From assembly GCA_900469475.1 (NCBI GenBank), contig UBXG01000016.1, positions 9,407 to 73,406 of the forward strand: 64,000 nucleotides of DNA, given 5' to 3'. A model generated the notes under the pieces. The model saw only the letters and a list, made by a program, of their open reading frames with translations, ran no database searches and was not told the origin of the DNA. Position 1 is the stretch's first letter. Every line of letters starts with the position of its first letter. The position numbers were made by a program, and so were the translations under genes. This DNA is from Hyphomicrobiales bacterium. Its GTDB lineage: Bacteria; Pseudomonadota; Alphaproteobacteria; Rhizobiales; Rhizobiaceae. Positions 6,172-16,124 of this stretch are shown here, in pieces.

Positions 6172-7113
6172 ATGACGAAATTGACGACAGCGGAGATGCG
6201 CGGCTACCAGCAGATTTGCGGCAGCGACGGTGCCATGATGGTGATTGCCTGCGACCAGCGCGGCGGCATGCGCAGCCTTCTGGCTAAGGACCCGGCCGAG
6301 CAGGCGGCGATCTCCGACAAGGTGCTGGGGGATACGAAAGCTGATATCGCTCGCTTCCTGGCAAGCAAGGCGTCCTGTGTTCTCGTCGATCCCATCTGCG
6401 CCGTGCCGGCGCTGGTCGATGACCGTGTCCTTCAGCGAGATACAGCACTGCTGATCGGCCTCGATGCTTCCGGCTGGGATACATCGCCGGAAGGCTATCA
6501 TCTGTCGAAGCTGGTTCCAGGCATTTCCGCGCGCCGCGTGCGCCAGTTGGGGGCAACCGGCGGCAAAATCATGGTCTATCTGCGCTCGGATCGGGATGCG
6601 GCGAATGCCCATAATATCCAGATCCTGAAACAGTGCATCGAAGACTTCGCACATGAGGATCTTCTGCTGGTCGTTGAATTCCTGACCTACAGGTTCGAAG
6701 ACGAGGATGAGGCCGACTACAAGGCGAAGCTGTCGTCTCTGATCGTCGGCGGCAGCAAGATCTGCCTCGATCTCGGCGCGAAAGTCTTGAAAATCCCTTA
6801 TCCGGGCTCGTCGGAAGCGTGTGCCGAAGTCACGCGTCTTTCAGGCGACGTGCCGTGGGCGGTGCTGTCGGCCGGCGTCGACCATGCGACCTTCCTTGCC
6901 CAGGTTGAGGATGCCATGCGCAACGGCGCTTCGGGTGTCATCGCCGGCCGCTCGCTCTGGAAAGACTGCATCTCGCTCGATCGTTCGGTAACGAAGGATC
7001 GGCTGGAGACGGTCGCGGTGCCGAGGCTTCGCGAAATCCAGGCCGTCATCGCGACGCACTTCAAGGGCACTGGCTCGCACGGCGCTGATCAAAGGCAGCG
7101 CGCCCATGGCTGA
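6172..7113 (+). CDS. Class I aldolase, LacD/YihT (tagatose-bisphosphate / sulfofructose-phosphate aldolase) family
   Basis: The 313-residue protein belongs to the DeoC/LacD TIM-barrel aldolases. The Schiff-base lysine is probably Lys207 in AKVLKIPYPG. Other family-like segments are ACDQRGGMRS near residue 26, VLVDP near 69 and GVIAGRSLWKD near 261. LacD cleaves tagatose 1,6-bisphosphate; YihT cleaves 6-deoxy-6-sulfofructose 1-phosphate; the substrate here cannot be told apart by eye. I chose ATG 6172 for its GGAGGAAGG ribosome site; the earlier in-frame ATG at 6100 lacks one. The gene overlaps the following kinase by 8 bases and is divergent from the SorC regulator, forming a kinase-aldolase catabolic pair fed by the ABC importer downstream. 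Confidence 0.85.
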   Translation: MTKLTTAEMRGYQQICGSDGAMMVIACDQRGGMRSLLAKDPAEQAAISDKVLGDTKADIARFLASKASCVLVDPICAVPALVDDRVLQRDTALLIGLDASGWDTSPEGYHLSKLVPGISARRVRQLGATGGKIMVYLRSDRDAANAHNIQILKQCIEDFAHEDLLLVVEFLTYRFEDEDEADYKAKLSSLIVGGSKICLDLGAKVLKIPYPGSSEACAEVTRLSGDVPWAVLSAGVDHATFLAQVEDAMRNGASGVIAGRSLWKDCISLDRSVTKDRLETVAVPRLREIQAVIATHFKGTGSHGADQRQRAHG

Positions 7114-8518
7114 CATCGCCATCGGCGTCGATATTGGCGGCACGAATATTCGTGCCACCCTCGTCTCCGTTCAGGGCGAGATCCTTGCCAAGCTGTCGGA
7201 AAGAACCCCGACCGATCCGCTGTTGGCATTGGAGCGCGTCATCGCGATGGCGCGCGCGCTCGACACTCCTGAAGCTCTGGGGATCGGCGTCGGCATACCA
7301 GGGCGTGTCGATGTCGACAGTCGCGAAATCCTGTCTGGCGGCATTCTTAATCTCTCTGGCCTCGATTTCGCACGGCGGATTGAGGCGGCACTTGGAAAGC
7401 CTGTCGCCATCGAGAATGATTGCAGCATGGCACTCATCGCCGAAATGCGGATCGGCGGCGCCAAGGGCTATCAAAATGTTGCGATGCTGACGATCGGAAC
7501 GGGCATTGGCGGCGCGGTCGCCCATGCCGGGCGCATCTATCACGGACACAAGGCGGCCGGACAACTCGGCCATATTTGTGTATCGCAGGATGGCCCGCCC
7601 TGCCCCTGCGGCAGGCGCGGCTGTGTCGAAACCTTCAGTTCTGGAACCGCTTTGCGCCGACACATCGCTGAAGCGGGATTGTCGGTCGTAACAATCAAGG
7701 AGGTGTTCGACATGGCTGCCGAGGGAGATGATGCGGCGGTGCGCGTCTTGCGCCAATGGGCAGTCCCTTTACGAGCGGCACTCGATAATATCGCGGCGAC
7801 GATGGATCCCGAAGTCATCCTGCTTGGCGGCGGGCTCGGCTGCGACGCGGCGCGTGCGCTTGCAGATCTGCCGGCGGCAGCGCCTTGGTTCTGCCCCGCA
7901 ATATTGCCGGCCAAACTCGCCGATGACGCCGGCGTCATCGGCGCGGGCCTGTCGATTTTCACTGCCGATGCGCCGTCACGGGAAAAGCGTGTCATCCTGG
8001 TCAACGGCGTGCCGGCTTCCGGTAAAAGCCGCCTTGCCAAGGCTTTGTCCGATCGAACCGGTTGGCCGGTCCTGTCCCTCGATGGCATCAAGAATCCGTT
8101 CCTGCAGCATATCGGACCAGTCGATCGCGACTTCAACCGGACTTTGGGAAAGGCGAGCTACCAGGCGATCTGGTCCATTATCGCGGATGCTCCGGCCGGC
8201 TCGACCTTCATCATCGACGCCTGGTTCGGTTTTCAGCCGAAAGCGCAGCTCGAAAACTATATCGAGGCTGCGAGAGTCGGGGATGTCGCGGAGCTGTGGT
8301 GCAAGGTGCCTGGAGCGGTCGCGGGCGAGCGTTATGCCAGCCGACTGAAGGAGCGGTTGCCTGGGCATCCGGGCGCCGAATATGTGCCGGAATTGATAAC
8401 GCTGGCGGATCGGGCCGAGCCTATGGGCTGCGGCGCAGTCATGACCGTCGACCAGACCAAAGAACCGGACATGGAGGTAATTCTCGCTTGGGTTTGGCAG
8501 GTATTCAACCGCCAATAA
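7106..8518 (+). CDS. ROK-family sugar kinase fused to a C-terminal P-loop kinase domain
   Basis: This 470-residue protein is two enzymes in one. Residues 1-290 are a ROK sugar kinase: phosphate-binding GVDIGGTN at 7-14, catalytic Asp105 in IENDCSM, and the ROK zinc site with His156 and Cys166, 168 and 173. Residues 295-470 form a separate P-loop nucleotide kinase: a Walker A GVPASGKS near 301 after a hydrophobic strand, then SLDGIKN and FIIDAWFGF. The second part resembles chloramphenicol-phosphotransferase or gluconate-kinase-like folds. Most ROK kinases stop near 300 residues. The start overlaps the aldolase stop, so the pair is co-translated. It may phosphorylate one sugar twice, or the second domain may act on another metabolite; that is inference. 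Confidence 0.85.
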   Translation: MADIAIGVDIGGTNIRATLVSVQGEILAKLSERTPTDPLLALERVIAMARALDTPEALGIGVGIPGRVDVDSREILSGGILNLSGLDFARRIEAALGKPVAIENDCSMALIAEMRIGGAKGYQNVAMLTIGTGIGGAVAHAGRIYHGHKAAGQLGHICVSQDGPPCPCGRRGCVETFSSGTALRRHIAEAGLSVVTIKEVFDMAAEGDDAAVRVLRQWAVPLRAALDNIAATMDPEVILLGGGLGCDAARALADLPAAAPWFCPAILPAKLADDAGVIGAGLSIFTADAPSREKRVILVNGVPASGKSRLAKALSDRTGWPVLSLDGIKNPFLQHIGPVDRDFNRTLGKASYQAIWSIIADAPAGSTFIIDAWFGFQPKAQLENYIEAARVGDVAELWCKVPGAVAGERYASRLKERLPGHPGAEYVPELITLADRAEPMGCGAVMTVDQTKEPDMEVILAWVWQVFNRQ

Positions 8519-11678: not shown

Positions 11679-11718
11679 GCGATCGCGATAGGTGTCATCG
11701 CGATCGCATTGTTTGTTT
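11679..11718 (+). terminator. Rho-independent terminator of the ABC importer operon
   Basis: A perfect 11-bp inverted repeat built on GCGATCGC (11679-11689 with 11697-11707, 7-base loop) is followed by ATTGTTTGTTT. It separates the importer operon from the lyase-like operon. The rest of the gap to 11941 holds no recognisable gene. Confidence 0.65.
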
Positions 11719-11941: not shown

Positions 11942-13471
11942 ATGAGCAAAGCAGACAATATCGTGTCCTTTATCGATGCGCCTCCGACAGTGAGCGATAT
12001 CGCCGCAATCGCACGGCGCAACGCCACAATAGTGATTTCGCCAAACGTCAAAGACAGAATCAACGCTGCGCGCGCCGTGGTTGAACGCTACCTGGCGGCC
12101 GACCAGCCAGTTTATGGTTTGACGACAGCGTTAGGCGCGGGCGTCGATACTCGCCTTGCCACGGACGACCTGATCGCCTTTCAGTTACGTGTACCACAAG
12201 CCCGCGCAGTCGGAGTTGGGCCTGCCCTTCCCCGCGAAGCCGTCAGGGCGATGATGGCGGCTCGCATCGCCGGCATGGCGGCCGGCGGCTCCGGCGTGTC
12301 GCTACCGGTTTTCGTCGGCCTCGTTGAGGCACTTAATGCCGGCTTTCATCCGGTCGTGCCATCGCTCGGTTCGATCGGCGCTGCCGATCTCGCGCCTTTG
12401 GCGCACATGGCACGAGCCTTGTTGGGCGATGGCGAGGCCGAAGTGGATGGCACCGTCATGCAGGCATTAGACGCTCTCTTGGAGGCCGACCTGAAGCCTC
12501 TGCCGATCGCTCCGAAGGATGGTCATGTCCTCGTGGTCGCCAATAGCCTGTCGGTTGGCAAGGCCTGCCTCTGCATCGAGGATATCGAACGGCTGTTCGA
12601 TTGGTCGCTTGCTGCCGTCGCGCTGAACTTCGAGGCATTCCGGGCCAACGTCTCGGCTTTCGATGACCGGGCACTAGCAGCAAGACCGGCCTTCGGCCAG
12701 TGCGAGGCGGCGGCGAGACTTCGCGAGCTGCTTTCCGGAAGTTCTCTTTTTATTGATGGTGCCGCCCGGCGCTTGCAGGATCCTTTGAGCTATCGCTGCG
12801 TCCCGCAGGTGTGGGGCGCCCTACTTCATGCGATCGGCGAAGCCCGCGCGGCAACCGAGATCGAACTTGCGAGTTCCGGCGACAATCCCGTCGTACTGGC
12901 CGACGAAGGGCTTATTTTGTCGCATGGAAATTTCGACATGACGGCCTTCGTTCTCGCATGGGAGCGGCTCGGCCAGGCAATCGCCCATTGTGCGGCGGCT
13001 ACCGCCTATAGAACGATGAAAATCATGTCTCCGGGCATGTCGGCGCTACCACGCTTCCTGACCCCGCGCGGGCAGAGCAGAACGGGTTTTGCCACCGCGC
13101 AGAAAACGGTCTCGGCGCTTGAAGCCGCGATACGCCATCTGGCCAATCCCGTGTCGCTCACGCCGATCCCGGTCGCCGATGGTGTCGAAGATCAGGCGTC
13201 GATGGCGCCGAGCGTCCTGAGCAAGATCGAAGCGATGATCGAGCGAATGCGTTATCTCGTGGCGATCGAGCTTGTCGCGTCCGCCCAAGCCGTTGAGCTG
13301 CGCGGTGTGGCGGGCGAGCTCGGCAGCGGGACGCTGGACGCCTATCGACAGGTGCGCCAGCTGGTGGCGCCGCTCGAGGAAGACCGTGCGCAAGGCCCTG
13401 ATTTTCAAAGAGTCTCGGAATTTATCGCAGAGACCGCGGCGAAAGCCGGTGACATGCCTGGAGAACGGTAA
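11942..13471 (+). CDS. HAL/PAL-fold protein lacking the MIO tripeptide (histidine-ammonia-lyase homologue)
   Basis: The 509 residues match histidine ammonia-lyase in length and fold, including YGLTTALGAG, QDPLSYRCVPQVWG, GDNPV and GVEDQASM. Active lyases build the MIO electrophile from Ala-Ser-Gly in GASGDLAPL; here the segment reads GSIGAADLAPL (Ala147-Ala148-Asp149), one residue short and without the serine. By motif alignment with bacterial HutH, catalytic His83 is replaced by Gln86 and Tyr280 by Leu282, while Tyr53, Arg283 and Glu414 equivalents remain. Ordinary ammonia elimination therefore seems impossible. ATG 11942 is chosen for homology and a GAGG site; an earlier in-frame start at 11813 is unlikely. 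It ends by overlapping the next gene (13471) and so forms an operon with it. Confidence 0.88.
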   Translation: MSKADNIVSFIDAPPTVSDIAAIARRNATIVISPNVKDRINAARAVVERYLAADQPVYGLTTALGAGVDTRLATDDLIAFQLRVPQARAVGVGPALPREAVRAMMAARIAGMAAGGSGVSLPVFVGLVEALNAGFHPVVPSLGSIGAADLAPLAHMARALLGDGEAEVDGTVMQALDALLEADLKPLPIAPKDGHVLVVANSLSVGKACLCIEDIERLFDWSLAAVALNFEAFRANVSAFDDRALAARPAFGQCEAAARLRELLSGSSLFIDGAARRLQDPLSYRCVPQVWGALLHAIGEARAATEIELASSGDNPVVLADEGLILSHGNFDMTAFVLAWERLGQAIAHCAAATAYRTMKIMSPGMSALPRFLTPRGQSRTGFATAQKTVSALEAAIRHLANPVSLTPIPVADGVEDQASMAPSVLSKIEAMIERMRYLVAIELVASAQAVELRGVAGELGSGTLDAYRQVRQLVAPLEEDRAQGPDFQRVSEFIAETAAKAGDMPGER

Positions 13472-14475
13472 TGCAGGAAATCTGGATCGACTATCTCAAT
13501 GCCATCGACGCCAAGGCGCTGGCGCTTTCCAACGACGAAATCCTCGACGCCGTGACCAAGGCGCTCGATGCACAGGGGCGCGGCGAAACCGTCATCGAGC
13601 CTCGCGTTCATCTCGTCCCCGAGAGTTCCGACAAGGGTCATTTCAACGTGCTGCGCGGTTATGTGAAGCCTCTCGACTATGCCGGCGTCAAGGTCGTCGG
13701 CGATTTCGTCGACAACTACAAGCAGGGCTTGCCCTCGGAACTGGCGGTTCTCAATCTCTTCGATCCGCGCACCGGTGTACCGAAGGCGATCATCGATGCG
13801 ACTGCCATCACCGACATGCGCACCGGTGCCGTCACCGCTATCGGCGCGCGCCATCTCGCCCGCAAGGATAGCAAGATCCTCGGCCATATCGGCGCACGCG
13901 GCACTTCCTACTGGAACGTGCGATTGCTCGACCACATCTTCGATTTCGACGAAATCCGCGTGCATTCGCGCCGTCCGGAAAGCCGCGACGCCTTCGCCGC
14001 ACGGCTGGAAAAGGATCTCGGCAAGAGAATCATCGTGACGGACAATTGGGAGGATTGCCTGAAGGGCGCCGATATCATGATCGAGGCAAGCCGGCTGCCG
14101 GAGCCGACGCCACTCTTCAAGACCGCCTGGGTCAAGAAGGGCGCTTTTGTCGTGCCTTACGGCACCATGAGCGCGCTCGAATTCGACCTGACCGACATCA
14201 TGGACAAGGTCGTCGTCGATGACTGGGGGCAATGCGGACCGGGGCGTCCCTTCGGTGCCCTTCGCCGCCATGTCGACGAGGGCAAGGTGACGGCCGAGAC
14301 GCTGCATGCTGAAATCGGCCAGATCGTCTGCGGCGCCAAGCCGGGCCGAGAAAGCGATGACGAGACCATCCTCTTCTGGCATCGCGGCCTGAGCACCACC
14401 GACGTCGCGCTCGGCGCAGCAATGGTCGAAAAGGCAAAGCGCATGAATATCGGCCAACGACTTCGGTTTGCGTGA
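13471..14475 (+). CDS. Ornithine cyclodeaminase / mu-crystallin family protein
   Basis: The 334 residues fit the OCD/mu-crystallin family, whose members include ornithine cyclodeaminase, alanine dehydrogenase, ketimine reductases and amino-acid-precursor synthases. Visible segments are the substrate domain with GVKVVGDFVDNYKQGLPSE near residue 71, and LFDPRTGVPKAIIDATAITDMRTGAVTAI leading to the Rossmann domain. The nucleotide loop ILGHIGARGTS is near residue 137. It overlaps the MIO-less lyase gene by one base and is followed seven bases later by the PhnD-like gene. A joint role in amine or imino-acid chemistry is plausible, but the substrate is unknown. Confidence 0.88.
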   Translation: MQEIWIDYLNAIDAKALALSNDEILDAVTKALDAQGRGETVIEPRVHLVPESSDKGHFNVLRGYVKPLDYAGVKVVGDFVDNYKQGLPSELAVLNLFDPRTGVPKAIIDATAITDMRTGAVTAIGARHLARKDSKILGHIGARGTSYWNVRLLDHIFDFDEIRVHSRRPESRDAFAARLEKDLGKRIIVTDNWEDCLKGADIMIEASRLPEPTPLFKTAWVKKGAFVVPYGTMSALEFDLTDIMDKVVVDDWGQCGPGRPFGALRRHVDEGKVTAETLHAEIGQIVCGAKPGRESDDETILFWHRGLSTTDVALGAAMVEKAKRMNIGQRLRFA

Positions 14476-14481
14476 CGCGCT

Positions 14482-15291
14482 ATGACGACTTCGAGTGCTA
14501 TCGCCTGCTCGCGAATGTATAATCTCAGCCCCAGAATATCTACTCTCTGGGATCAGCTCTTTCATTGGCTTGCCGACCGATCGGGCGTCGAACTCGAAGT
14601 CATTGCCCATGCCGCTCCGGCACCTTTGTCCGAGCTTTGGGCACGTCCGGACATGGGCGCCGTTTTCATGTGCGGCTTTCCCTTCTCCCAGCTATCGCCG
14701 GCGGAGCGCCCGCAACCATTGGCAGCGCCTGTTTCGCTGGCCGACTGGGCAAACGGGCAGCCAGTCTATACGAGCCACATCGTCGCCGCGCGCGATAAAC
14801 AGCTTACGGAAGCGGATCTTGCAACCGCCCGCTGGGGCTGGACGGTGCGGGACTCGCAGTCCGGCTATAATGCCCCGCGTGAATTCTTTGCCATGCTTGC
14901 GAATAGGCCTTCAGCAGCTCAAACCGTCGGCTCGCTCCTCAATCCGCGTGGCGTAGTCGACGCCATTCGTTCAGACACCATAGATGTCGGCGCCATCGAC
15001 GCCTACGCGTTTCAGCTGATGGCAATGCACGAGCCGGACATGATCGCGCCACTGCGCATTGTTGCTACGACAAAACCGGCCCCCTTCCCTTTGCTGGTGG
15101 CCGCGCGGCAGCAGTCGGCGGATATCGTCGATGCGTTACGCGCCGCTCTTCTCGGCGCGCACCAGGATACGGAGGGGAGCGATATCCTCGCATCGCTTGG
15201 CCTTAGCGCCTTTGCCAAACCGGATGTTGCCGCCTATGACCAGCTTCCCATACGAGCGCGGGCGATCGATGCGGCTCTCGGAGCGTGGTGA
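14482..15291 (+). CDS. PhnD-like (phosphate/phosphonate-type) binding protein without signal peptide
   Basis: This 269-residue protein resembles the PhnD/SsuA type of periplasmic binding proteins. LSPRISTLWDQLFHWLA matches the usual opening strand-helix and WGWTVRDSQSGYNAPREF the usual ligand-binding Ser/Gly loop. VGAIDAYAFQLM is also characteristic. The N-terminus begins directly with the mature-like fold and has no Sec, Tat or lipoprotein signal, so it is predicted to stay in the cytosol. No permease or ATPase adjoins it. As third gene of the operon with the MIO-less lyase and the OCD-like protein it may be a ligand carrier, a sensor or an enzyme built on the same fold. Confidence 0.75.
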   Translation: MTTSSAIACSRMYNLSPRISTLWDQLFHWLADRSGVELEVIAHAAPAPLSELWARPDMGAVFMCGFPFSQLSPAERPQPLAAPVSLADWANGQPVYTSHIVAARDKQLTEADLATARWGWTVRDSQSGYNAPREFFAMLANRPSAAQTVGSLLNPRGVVDAIRSDTIDVGAIDAYAFQLMAMHEPDMIAPLRIVATTKPAPFPLLVAARQQSADIVDALRAALLGAHQDTEGSDILASLGLSAFAKPDVAAYDQLPIRARAIDAALGAW

Positions 15292-15300
15292 CGCTCGAAC

Positions 15301-15328
15301 GCGCACAATAGCCGAGCCTATTGTGCGC
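15301..15328. terminator. Bidirectional terminator between convergent genes
   Basis: A perfect 11-bp inverted repeat (15301-15311 with 15318-15328, 6-base loop) lies between the PhnD-like gene and the oppositely oriented deoxyribosyltransferase gene, whose stop codon falls within it. There is no long T run, so efficiency is uncertain. Confidence 0.55.
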
Positions 15329-15902
15329 TGGCGGTCTGTTTCAACAATTGCTCCGCCGCGAAGCTCAGGCATTCTTCGAAGGCCGTCAGATCGAGAAAGA
15401 GCTGCTCCGGCGCGACCTGGCGCGTGACGATGACACCGCCGCGTGCCGTAATGCCGCCGTCGAGCATCAGATTGTCAGCCATGTCGAAGTTTTCCAGCGC
15501 CATTCCGTCGGGACCACGGTGGCGTCCGTCTTCACCGAGAAGTACCTCGCCGCCATAGAGCCTGCTCACGCGCTCGAAGTGATTATCGAGGCAGTTGGAA
15601 AAAGCGAATGCCGGGCAGCCGCGGGCGCACATGAAGCCTAGTTCGAAGGCTGTGCCGATATCGGCCGCTATGCCACGAAACGGCGTGAGATTGGCGATGA
15701 TGAGGTCGGCGCTCGTCATCAGCTTTTCATTGATGGCGCTGATGGCAAGGCCACGCTGGCGACGTGTCTCGGTTTCCGGCACCACCAAATCACCCGGTGA
15801 AACGGGCGTGAAGCCGTAGCTGCGTGCCATTGCGATCTTGCGATCGAGGATTTCCCTTGCGTTCGGAAGGAAAACTTCCGGCCCTGCCAGATATGCTCTC
15901 AA
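15318..15902 (-). CDS. Nucleoside 2-deoxyribosyltransferase family protein
   Basis: The product of about 194 residues opens with LRAYLAGPEVF, typical of this family. It continues with IAMARSYGFTPVSPGD and the SADLIIANLTPFRG segment whose Asp and Asn line the active site. GTAFELGFMCARG carries the nucleophile Glu. These enzymes transfer deoxyribose between bases, or hydrolyse deoxynucleotides, in salvage. I prefer TTG 15902 (AGAGGC ribosome site eight bases ahead) over the open frame reaching 15998, because family homology begins exactly there. It is convergent with the PhnD-like gene and divergent from the cyclase gene. Confidence 0.85.
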   Translation of the reverse strand: MRAYLAGPEVFLPNAREILDRKIAMARSYGFTPVSPGDLVVPETETRRQRGLAISAINEKLMTSADLIIANLTPFRGIAADIGTAFELGFMCARGCPAFAFSNCLDNHFERVSRLYGGEVLLGEDGRHRGPDGMALENFDMADNLMLDGGITARGGVIVTRQVAPEQLFLDLTAFEECLSFAAEQLLKQTASAQ

Positions 15903-16124
15903 TGCTTTGCCTCTTTGACCGAATATTGCAACGCGGGAGTCGCGGAACCATATGAAGCCTATGGCCGATTCAGGGCTGTTCTGCCATACCCGGCACATAA
16001 TTTACGAAGTCGCGAATTAAAAGTGATTGCCGTTCCAGGTCACTGGCGAGACGCGTATAGTTCTATTCGGATCGAATAGCGCTCACGATCCAGGACGGAT
16101 GACGGAACCTGTGGGGTATAGAAA

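Follow-up and report, generated by a model that had tools for sequence, protein, structure and literature searches.

A MIO-less lyase-fold protein encoded in a three-gene operon of a Hyphomicrobiales bacterium: a putative betaine lyase from a sister clade of ergothionase

Introduction

What does a protein with the fold of histidine ammonia-lyase do once the tripeptide that builds its cofactor has been lost? The question is raised by a three-gene operon in a stretch of 64,000 nucleotides (hereafter the window) of contig UBXG01000016.1 (positions 9,407 to 73,406; assembly GCA_900469475.1) from a Hyphomicrobiales bacterium. The operon encodes P0001, with the fold of the aromatic amino acid lyases, P0002, of the ornithine cyclodeaminase (OCD)/mu-crystallin family, and P0003, with a periplasmic-binding fold (Table 1). 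Histidine ammonia-lyases carry a 4-methylideneimidazole-5-one (MIO) group, which turns the primary amino group of the substrate into a leaving group, while a quaternary amine leaves without MIO, as ergothionase shows. The reading favored here, with a probability of roughly 0.55, is that P0001 is a MIO-independent lyase of a sister clade of ergothionase, eliminating a tertiary amine from a betaine.

Sequence, Residues and Conservation of P0001

The lyase family PF00221 matches P0001 over residues 16-473 (443.4 bits, cut-off 27.3), placing it within the superfamily, and its AlphaFold2 model has a pLDDT of 90.8. Where Pseudomonas putida HutH reads GSVG-ASG-DLAPLAH, P0001 reads GSIG-AA-DLAPLAH, so that the Ala-Ser-Gly of the MIO is replaced by Ala147-Ala148 with the deletion of one residue, as had been noticed in the initial annotation. 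Since GAAD stands in place of GASGD and no serine is left to build it, P0001 is expected to form no MIO. The columns of HutH Tyr53, Gln277, Arg283 and Glu414 are kept as Tyr58, Gln279, Arg285 and Glu416, while Asn195 has become Val199, residue 280 Leu282 and Met382 Ala384. For His83 the alignment gives Arg88; the initial annotation had placed its equivalent wrongly at Gln86, although it had read the tyrosine, arginine, glutamate and Leu282 equivalents correctly. It had also missed Lys388, which stands in the column of HutH Val386 and ergothionase Lys383, and ergothionase itself as the nearest solved relative. Alignments of 16 and 26 rows show little or no variation at Tyr58, Gln279, Arg285, Lys388 and Glu416.

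An ordinary histidine ammonia-lyase with an unusual motif is hardly credible here. Annotated relatives do carry the names hutH or histidine ammonia-lyase, given automatically, but the serine for MIO is absent, the HutH equivalog model TIGR01225 gives 377.8 bits against a cut-off of 539.15, and a regular HutH with ASG (L003), adjoining a urocanase-type gene, is found elsewhere in the genome. Ordinary deamination by P0001 is further unlikely because replacement of the MIO serine by alanine lowers the activity of HutH and phenylalanine ammonia-lyase more than thousandfold, according to PMC3903478; MIO-deficient mutants are also the subject of PMC12535398. None of the NCBIfam cut-offs was reached by P0001, and no ergothionase-named model came up for any of ten lyases, so this library cannot be used for calling ergothionase.

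The altered motif is not an accident of this genome. GAAD is kept in the closest homologues examined, which are 80-94% identical, and among named relatives in those of Rhizobium tropici CIAT 899 (94.5% identity), R. hainanense (92%), R. johnstonii 3841 plasmid pRL12 (76%) and Martelella (64%), and the top match in a tblastn search against plasmids was R. tropici CIAT 899, at 99.7% for P0002 and 94.5% for P0001, so that the bacterium seems to belong to the R. tropici group. Measured against CIAT 899, R. hainanense and R. johnstonii, respectively, the ratio of nonsynonymous to synonymous substitution rates (dN/dS) was 0.14, 0.06 and 0.12 for P0001, 0.006, 0.010 and 0.053 for P0002, and 0.28, 0.13 and 0.13 for P0003. 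A sequencing error or lone mutation is ruled out because GAAD is kept in the relatives and P0001 is under selection; a pseudogene is likewise ruled out by the open frame and the dN/dS of 0.06-0.14. The initial annotation had named an ASG-bearing homologue of over 90% identity as a sign of such an accident; none was seen, and the relatives at 94% and 92% keep GAAD. The same data bear on the suggestion that P0001 is catalytically dead and binds a histidine- or betaine-like ligand, which would fit the loss of MIO and the changed equivalents of His83, Asn195 and residue 280. It is very improbable, given the conservation of the five residues named above, the purifying selection on P0001, and ergothionase, which is active without MIO according to PMC13405746.

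A profile of the clade was run on 397 sampled genomes of the phylum. In nine of them, the own one included, the best score was 623-796 bits; five of these have a second match at 607-613 bits, and the next score below is 426 bits. The clade is thus sharply bounded and patchy.

Phylogeny and Relation to Ergothionase

Among PDB sequences, the best match of P0001 is the ergothionase of Treponema denticola (6s7j; 270.7 bits, residues 13-496), with 241.5 bits for HutH. Foldseek also placed 6s7j first for the P0001 model (1.7e-34), and VIA-align gave it a Z of 45.4 (2.2 Å over 492 residues), followed by 43.6 for the next structure and 41.6 for HutH. The ergothionase motif, SSIGEGDI, has the same one-residue deletion as P0001.

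In a maximum likelihood tree of 56 rows, computed without the motif columns, a single clade (support 100/98) unites 38 MIO-less rows; 37 of them have the lysine of the Lys388 column and one is cut off before it. The clade splits into an ergothionase side (99/96), whose five rows come from T. denticola, Polaromonas, Paraburkholderia, Paracoccus and the own genome (L004), and a P0001 side of 33 rows (93/96); two long-branch rows, L005 of the own genome and L133, lie outside. All 11 GASGD rows of the tree have valine in the lysine column, and 10 further GASGD rows readable there have valine (seven), isoleucine (two) or tyrosine (one), never lysine. The picture is the same at the loci of the OCD gene. 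From a scan of the genome collection with OCD, the best 80 of at least 573 related stretches (E 1e-3 or better) were kept as loci, and near the OCD gene a lyase-type gene was found at 60 of them and at the other 20 none. The 63 entries amount to 61 genes, after a 12-residue fragment (L132_1) was dropped and two pieces at L107 were taken as one gene. ASG occurs in none of the 61, lysine stands in the Lys383 column in 60, the exception being a HutH-like paralogue whose motif differs, and arginine in the His83 column in 59.

The motif deletion and the lysine together mark the MIO-independent lyases of this fold, in one clade with ergothionase, and P0001 has both. The initial annotation had foreseen a whole conserved clade with this change, which the 61 genes and the 38-row clade bear out. 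Its claim of new chemistry in an undescribed family holds in part: the clade is real, unnamed and above no NCBIfam cut-off, but its kind was already known through ergothionase, MIO-less by the same deletion. The OCD-linked clade was not recognized in the open-licence papers searched, which is weak evidence of novelty.

P0001 could simply be ergothionase (ergothioneine trimethylamine-lyase), as its sister position, the shared deletion, the kept Lys388 and Glu416, the top PDB match, an EgtUC-like quaternary-amine importer linked in relatives and a YeiH-family putative sulfate exporter gene recurring near OCD in five lineages might suggest. This is nevertheless improbable, since the tree parts the two sides and ergothionase Lys63, kept on its own side in Polaromonas, Paracoccus, Paraburkholderia and L004, is Val68 in P0001 and lysine in no row of the P0001 side; P0001 thus appears to fall outside ergothionase proper. 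The genome also has a separate candidate for this task. L004, which has a GCAD motif and keeps the Lys63 and Lys383 columns, adjoins an ErtD-type hydantoin-5-propionate amidohydrolase gene (784 bits, cut-off 600); about 4.4 kb away lies a thiourocanate hydratase gene (1064 bits, cut-off 930), and together they make up a candidate ergothioneine-use cluster (G000:C24:431142-438666; L004, L053, L181). Because L004 sits on a long branch (3.22) with only 25.9% identity to T. denticola ergothionase, its place in the tree is less sure and its role is taken from its neighbors. Elsewhere in the genome there thus seems to be an ergothioneine pathway equipped with a lyase candidate; P0001 is probably not this genome's ergothionase and most likely has another substrate.

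Altogether, five genes of the genome match P0001, namely P0001 itself, L003, L004, L002 and L005. L002 (G000:C34:179790-181280; L052) has GSAGYL as its motif, which is shortened and reads SAG where ASG would stand. It adjoins a gene of the N-methyl-L-tryptophan-oxidase type (412.7 bits, cut-off 257), and HutC-like and amino-acid ABC-type genes lie nearby. L002 belongs to a second HutH-like group whose motif is shortened relative to GSVGASGDL of HutH (L002, L116:3473-5032, L156, L157, L166, L193) and which clusters with MIO-bearing HutH in the tree without the standard ASG. L005 (G000:C40:65164-66429) is a short, very divergent PF00221-type homologue of 429 aa, whose motif contains AGE and whose Glu414 column is occupied by aspartate.

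Gene Neighborhoods of the Relatives

Gene maps were drawn with a simple home-made caller of open reading frames, so that single neighbors may be missing or mis-started, and each label is taken from the best BLAST match among reference genes, mostly without a profile check. By these labels, within 8.5 kb of OCD the 80 loci have a lyase gene at 59, a PhnD-like gene at 56 (directly downstream at 49), a HutC-like regulator gene at 35, and genes for CoA-transferase at 20, MaoC at 24, short-chain dehydrogenase/reductase (SDR) at 23 and YeiH at 13. On the conservation of gene neighbors, which the initial annotation had asked about, the clade is linked to an OCD gene and often to a PhnD-like gene. At 31 of the 80 loci, an OpuAC/ProX-type quaternary-amine binding protein is encoded within the same distance; all 31 have a lyase-type gene and none belongs to the 20 loci without one, which ties the importer to the lyase and not to OCD, although these are counts of related loci and not of independent events, and to that extent they speak less strongly for a betaine substrate.

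In R. johnstonii the order is CoA-transferase, SDR, MaoC, HutC, lyase (RL_RS36655), binding protein (RL_RS36660), OCD, PhnD, two permeases and ATPase. Its HutC-like regulator scores above the HutC cut-off (279 vs 220 bits), and its binding protein matches acetylcholine and nicotine sensor proteins, ProX and the ergothioneine-binding EgtUC. At the Salinicola locus (L116), genes for HutU, a BCCT betaine transporter, a HutH-like protein, HutI and HutG are followed on the same strand by the GAAD lyase, a quaternary-amine binding protein, OCD, PhnD, two permeases and an ATPase. Another group has two NtaA/DmoA-type monooxygenases instead. UbiD-family decarboxylase genes lie directly upstream of a GAAD lyase with no OCD nearby (L037:6502-9486), and directly downstream of OCD with no lyase in Pigmentiphaga (L121:10001-12430). 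The YeiH-family genes near OCD are spread over the R. leguminosarum group (11/13 loci), Aminobacter, Aureimonas, Polaromonas and Paracoccus, some with a LysR gene beside them; among them are L055:6853-7914, L060:5972-7069, L058:8799-9809, L101 (Aminobacter) and L110:8914-9912 (Aureimonas). Thiourocanate was rejected as substrate of the linked urocanases, as four HutU-like proteins (L127, L061, L124, L116) pass the HutU cut-off and stay below the thiourocanate cut-offs.

Proposed Reaction of P0001

Under the betaine reading, P0001 would eliminate an amine that leaves readily from the outset, with trimethylamine as prime candidate, from an alpha-(trimethylammonio) acid, and an alpha,beta-unsaturated acid (enoate) would be left. 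Tyr58, Glu416 and Lys388 would provide acid/base catalysis and Arg285 would hold the carboxylate; we infer the leaving group, the single-residue roles and the substrate. The addition or isomerization put forward in the initial annotation is less likely than an elimination without MIO, because ergothionase is MIO-less with the same deletion. A betaine lyase freeing trimethylamine and an enoate is suggested by the quaternary-amine importers, the HutC-like regulators, the CoA-transferase, MaoC and SDR genes and the UbiD gene beside a relative at L037. Among betaines a histidine-type one is favored (hercynine to urocanate), since HutC and hut genes lie near relatives.

Several observations weigh against this reading. 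The identity of P0001 is 32.3% with T. denticola ergothionase and 34.3% with P. putida HutH, and as these values are about equal the link to ergothionase rests on profile score, fold and tree. L133, MIO-less and with the lysine, falls outside the clade. Arg88 in place of His83 and Ala384 in place of HutH Met382 suggest a changed side chain rather than plain imidazole or hercynine. The operon of the window is a reduced form relative to those of the relatives, with no quaternary-amine importer gene and no HutC gene adjoining it, and a search for MaoC or HutC remnants in the 293-bp gap upstream of P0001 gave no convincing match (best E 0.06). YeiH is a hint at sulfur which a plain hercynine or betaine pathway does not explain. 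The urocanases near OCD loci are of the ordinary HutU kind and may simply serve histidine. Some MIO-less relatives of P0001 have no OCD gene nearby, and the OCD and PhnD-like pair occurs with a MIO-bearing HutH in Comamonadaceae (L061) and Rhodococcus (L064). Ten genomes from among the 20 loci where OCD lacks a linked lyase were searched (E 1e-40 or better), and in seven no MIO-less lyase of the clade was found, G583 and G589 giving no match at all and G591 two partial matches only; in the other three a MIO-less lyase with the lysine lies elsewhere (Arg-type in G590, ergothionase-like in G584 and G592). As the pair occurs with a MIO-bearing HutH and in genomes where no such lyase was found, the partners give no direct support to betaine chemistry.

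A more unusual version, which we consider unlikely, would make the substrate a betaine with an acidic, perhaps sulfur-based group, such as an oxidized thio-histidine betaine, and the family an undescribed one. Arg88 would bind the anionic group, P0002 and P0003 would act on the acidic or imine part by a novel route, and the YeiH exporters and luciferase-type NtaA/DmoA monooxygenases of relatives would handle the released sulfur.

Whatever the exact substrate of the favored betaine lyase, the well-supported MIO-less clade with its new lysine suggests that MIO loss extends beyond ergothionase alone. Mostly annotated as histidine ammonia-lyase in the public records examined, the clade is found on plasmids and chromosomes of Rhizobium and other bacteria. 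It probably holds several betaine-degrading activities, of relevance to the use of plant or fungal betaines as food by root-nodule and soil bacteria and to their release of trimethylamine. The clade also brings to light a very conserved OCD and PhnD-like pair to which no function has been assigned.

Partner Proteins

P0002 belongs to PF02423 (181.5 bits, cut-off 24), and its closest PDB types, matched over nearly the full length, are the archaeal alanine dehydrogenase 1omo and the pyrroline-2-carboxylate reductase 6t3e. Thirteen NCBIfam models match it, none above its cut-off (best 188 bits vs 409), those for alanine dehydrogenase, EutC, SbnB and BhcD included. Members of its subfamily in Rhizobium, Burkholderiales, Rhodobacterales, Salinicola and Streptomyces are 67-99% identical to P0002. 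P0003 matches PF12974 (105 bits) and falls far short of the PhnD equivalog TIGR03431 (30.7 vs 261.1 bits). Its model (pLDDT 94.8) finds AioX and ArrX as best fold matches, and an oxyanion-type loop, S125-x-S127-G128, is invariant in an alignment of 26 rows. As the initial annotation had held for a cytosolic PhnD-like protein, no signal peptide was seen in P0003 or its relatives by eye or in the model, the chain starting at the first strand of the fold. In Rhodobacteraceae, only tetratricopeptide repeats were found in a gene lying between OCD and PhnD. In Comamonadaceae and Rhodococcus the two genes lie inside or beside hut-type genes, on plasmids in both cases (L061:8259-11831, L064:10001-14151), and the Rhodococcus OCD match covers residues 69-333 only.

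P0002 invites another explanation, in which the lyase removes a beta-substituent from an alpha-amino acid and the resulting dehydroamino acid tautomerizes to an imine that P0002 reduces. Pairs of a lyase with an OCD-type reductase are known as EutB/EutC (hydroxyectoine) and BhcB/BhcD (beta-hydroxyaspartate), and the lyase partners in such pairs are pyridoxal phosphate enzymes. P0002 is most like imine-handling OCD enzymes, and the EutC and BhcD models match it below cut-off. In addition, OCD lies within about 1.5 kb of Arg-type lyases at 15 of 16 genome loci and of His-type GAAD relatives, from two genera, at none of five; in this count L153, unreadable in its correct frame, was left out, L148, L150 and L154, being L006, L007 and L009, were counted once and the own L147 was not counted. 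On the ergothionase side, His-type lyases with OCD occur in Polaromonas (L060) and Paraburkholderia (L139). This explanation is doubtful, however, as the seven of 10 searched genomes with the pair in which no MIO-less lyase of the clade was found show that OCD is not an obligate second step, the quaternary-amine importers track the lyase, and the known partners are pyridoxal phosphate enzymes. The same seven genomes, together with the MIO-less relatives without OCD, argue against the earlier proposal that the OCD partner reduces or cyclizes the lyase product: OCD does not simply act next in line behind the lyase. P0002 and P0003 form a conserved accessory pair, beside a HutC-like regulator gene in many relatives. 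If roles had to be assigned, P0002 would reduce an imine derived from an amino-acid-like compound, with P0003 as its cytosolic oxyanion-binding partner.

Operon Structure and Surrounding Genes

The coordinates of the features are collected in Table 1. The gene order claimed in the initial annotation agrees with the open reading frames, P0001 and P0002 overlapping by one base and P0002 and P0003 being six bases apart. An 11-pair hairpin between the upstream sugar-type ABC (ATP-binding cassette) genes and P0001 suggests a separate transcription unit, and a single operon with these genes is unlikely. Terminator-like sites in the region are barely above chance (four found vs 3.0 expected from shuffles), the stem of this hairpin being the longest, and a promoter scan of the region found none (1.0 expected).

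Table 1. Features of the P0001 operon, with positions in the window.
Feature	Position	Strand	Basis
P0001, MIO-less aromatic-amino-acid-lyase-fold protein, 509 aa	11942..13471	+	PF00221, PDB matches, tree, model
P0002, OCD/mu-crystallin-family oxidoreductase, 334 aa	13471..14475	+	PF02423
P0003, periplasmic-binding-fold protein (AioX/ArrX/PhnD/PtxB-like), 269 aa	14482..15291	+	PF12974, model, fold matches
P0001 codons G146-A147-A148-D149, in place of G-A-S-G-D of MIO enzymes	12377..12388	+	Alignments
P0001 codon Arg88 (HutH His83 column)	12203..12205	+	Alignment
P0001 codon Lys388 (ergothionase Lys383/HutH Val386 column), common to the MIO-less clade	13103..13105	+	Alignment, tree
Hairpin of 11 pairs, terminator-like, separating P0001 from the sugar-type ABC genes upstream	11679..11707	+	Hairpin scan

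Further upstream, a gene at 7106-8518 (+) encodes a ROK-family sugar kinase fused to a C-terminal AAA_33 domain, with a DeoC/LacD-type aldolase gene upstream of it and a ribose-type ABC transporter downstream. On the other side, a nucleoside 2-deoxyribosyltransferase-family gene (PF05014) at 15318-15998 (-) is convergent with the operon, which it also adjoins in R. tropici CIAT 899 (L056).

Comparison with Known Systems

P0001 resembles HutH in fold, over most of the chain and in the Tyr53, Gln277, Arg283 and Glu414 columns, but differs from it in the absent ASG, in the changed His83, Asn195 and residue 280, and in its score below the HutH cut-off. Ergothionase (6s7j/6s7q) shares with it the fold, the motif deletion, the Tyr53, Lys383 and Glu411 columns and a sister position in the tree, whereas identity is only about 32%, ergothionase Lys63 is Val68 and ergothionase His83 is Arg88 in P0001, and the P0001 side of the tree is, unlike ergothionase, largely tied to an OCD gene. 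P0002 differs from the named OCD enzymes in forming a very conserved subfamily of its own that reaches no equivalog cut-off. Finally, P0003 shares the fold and the SxSG loop with the binding proteins AioX, ArrX, PhnD and PtxB, but has, unlike them, no visible signal peptide and no transporter gene in its three-gene operon.

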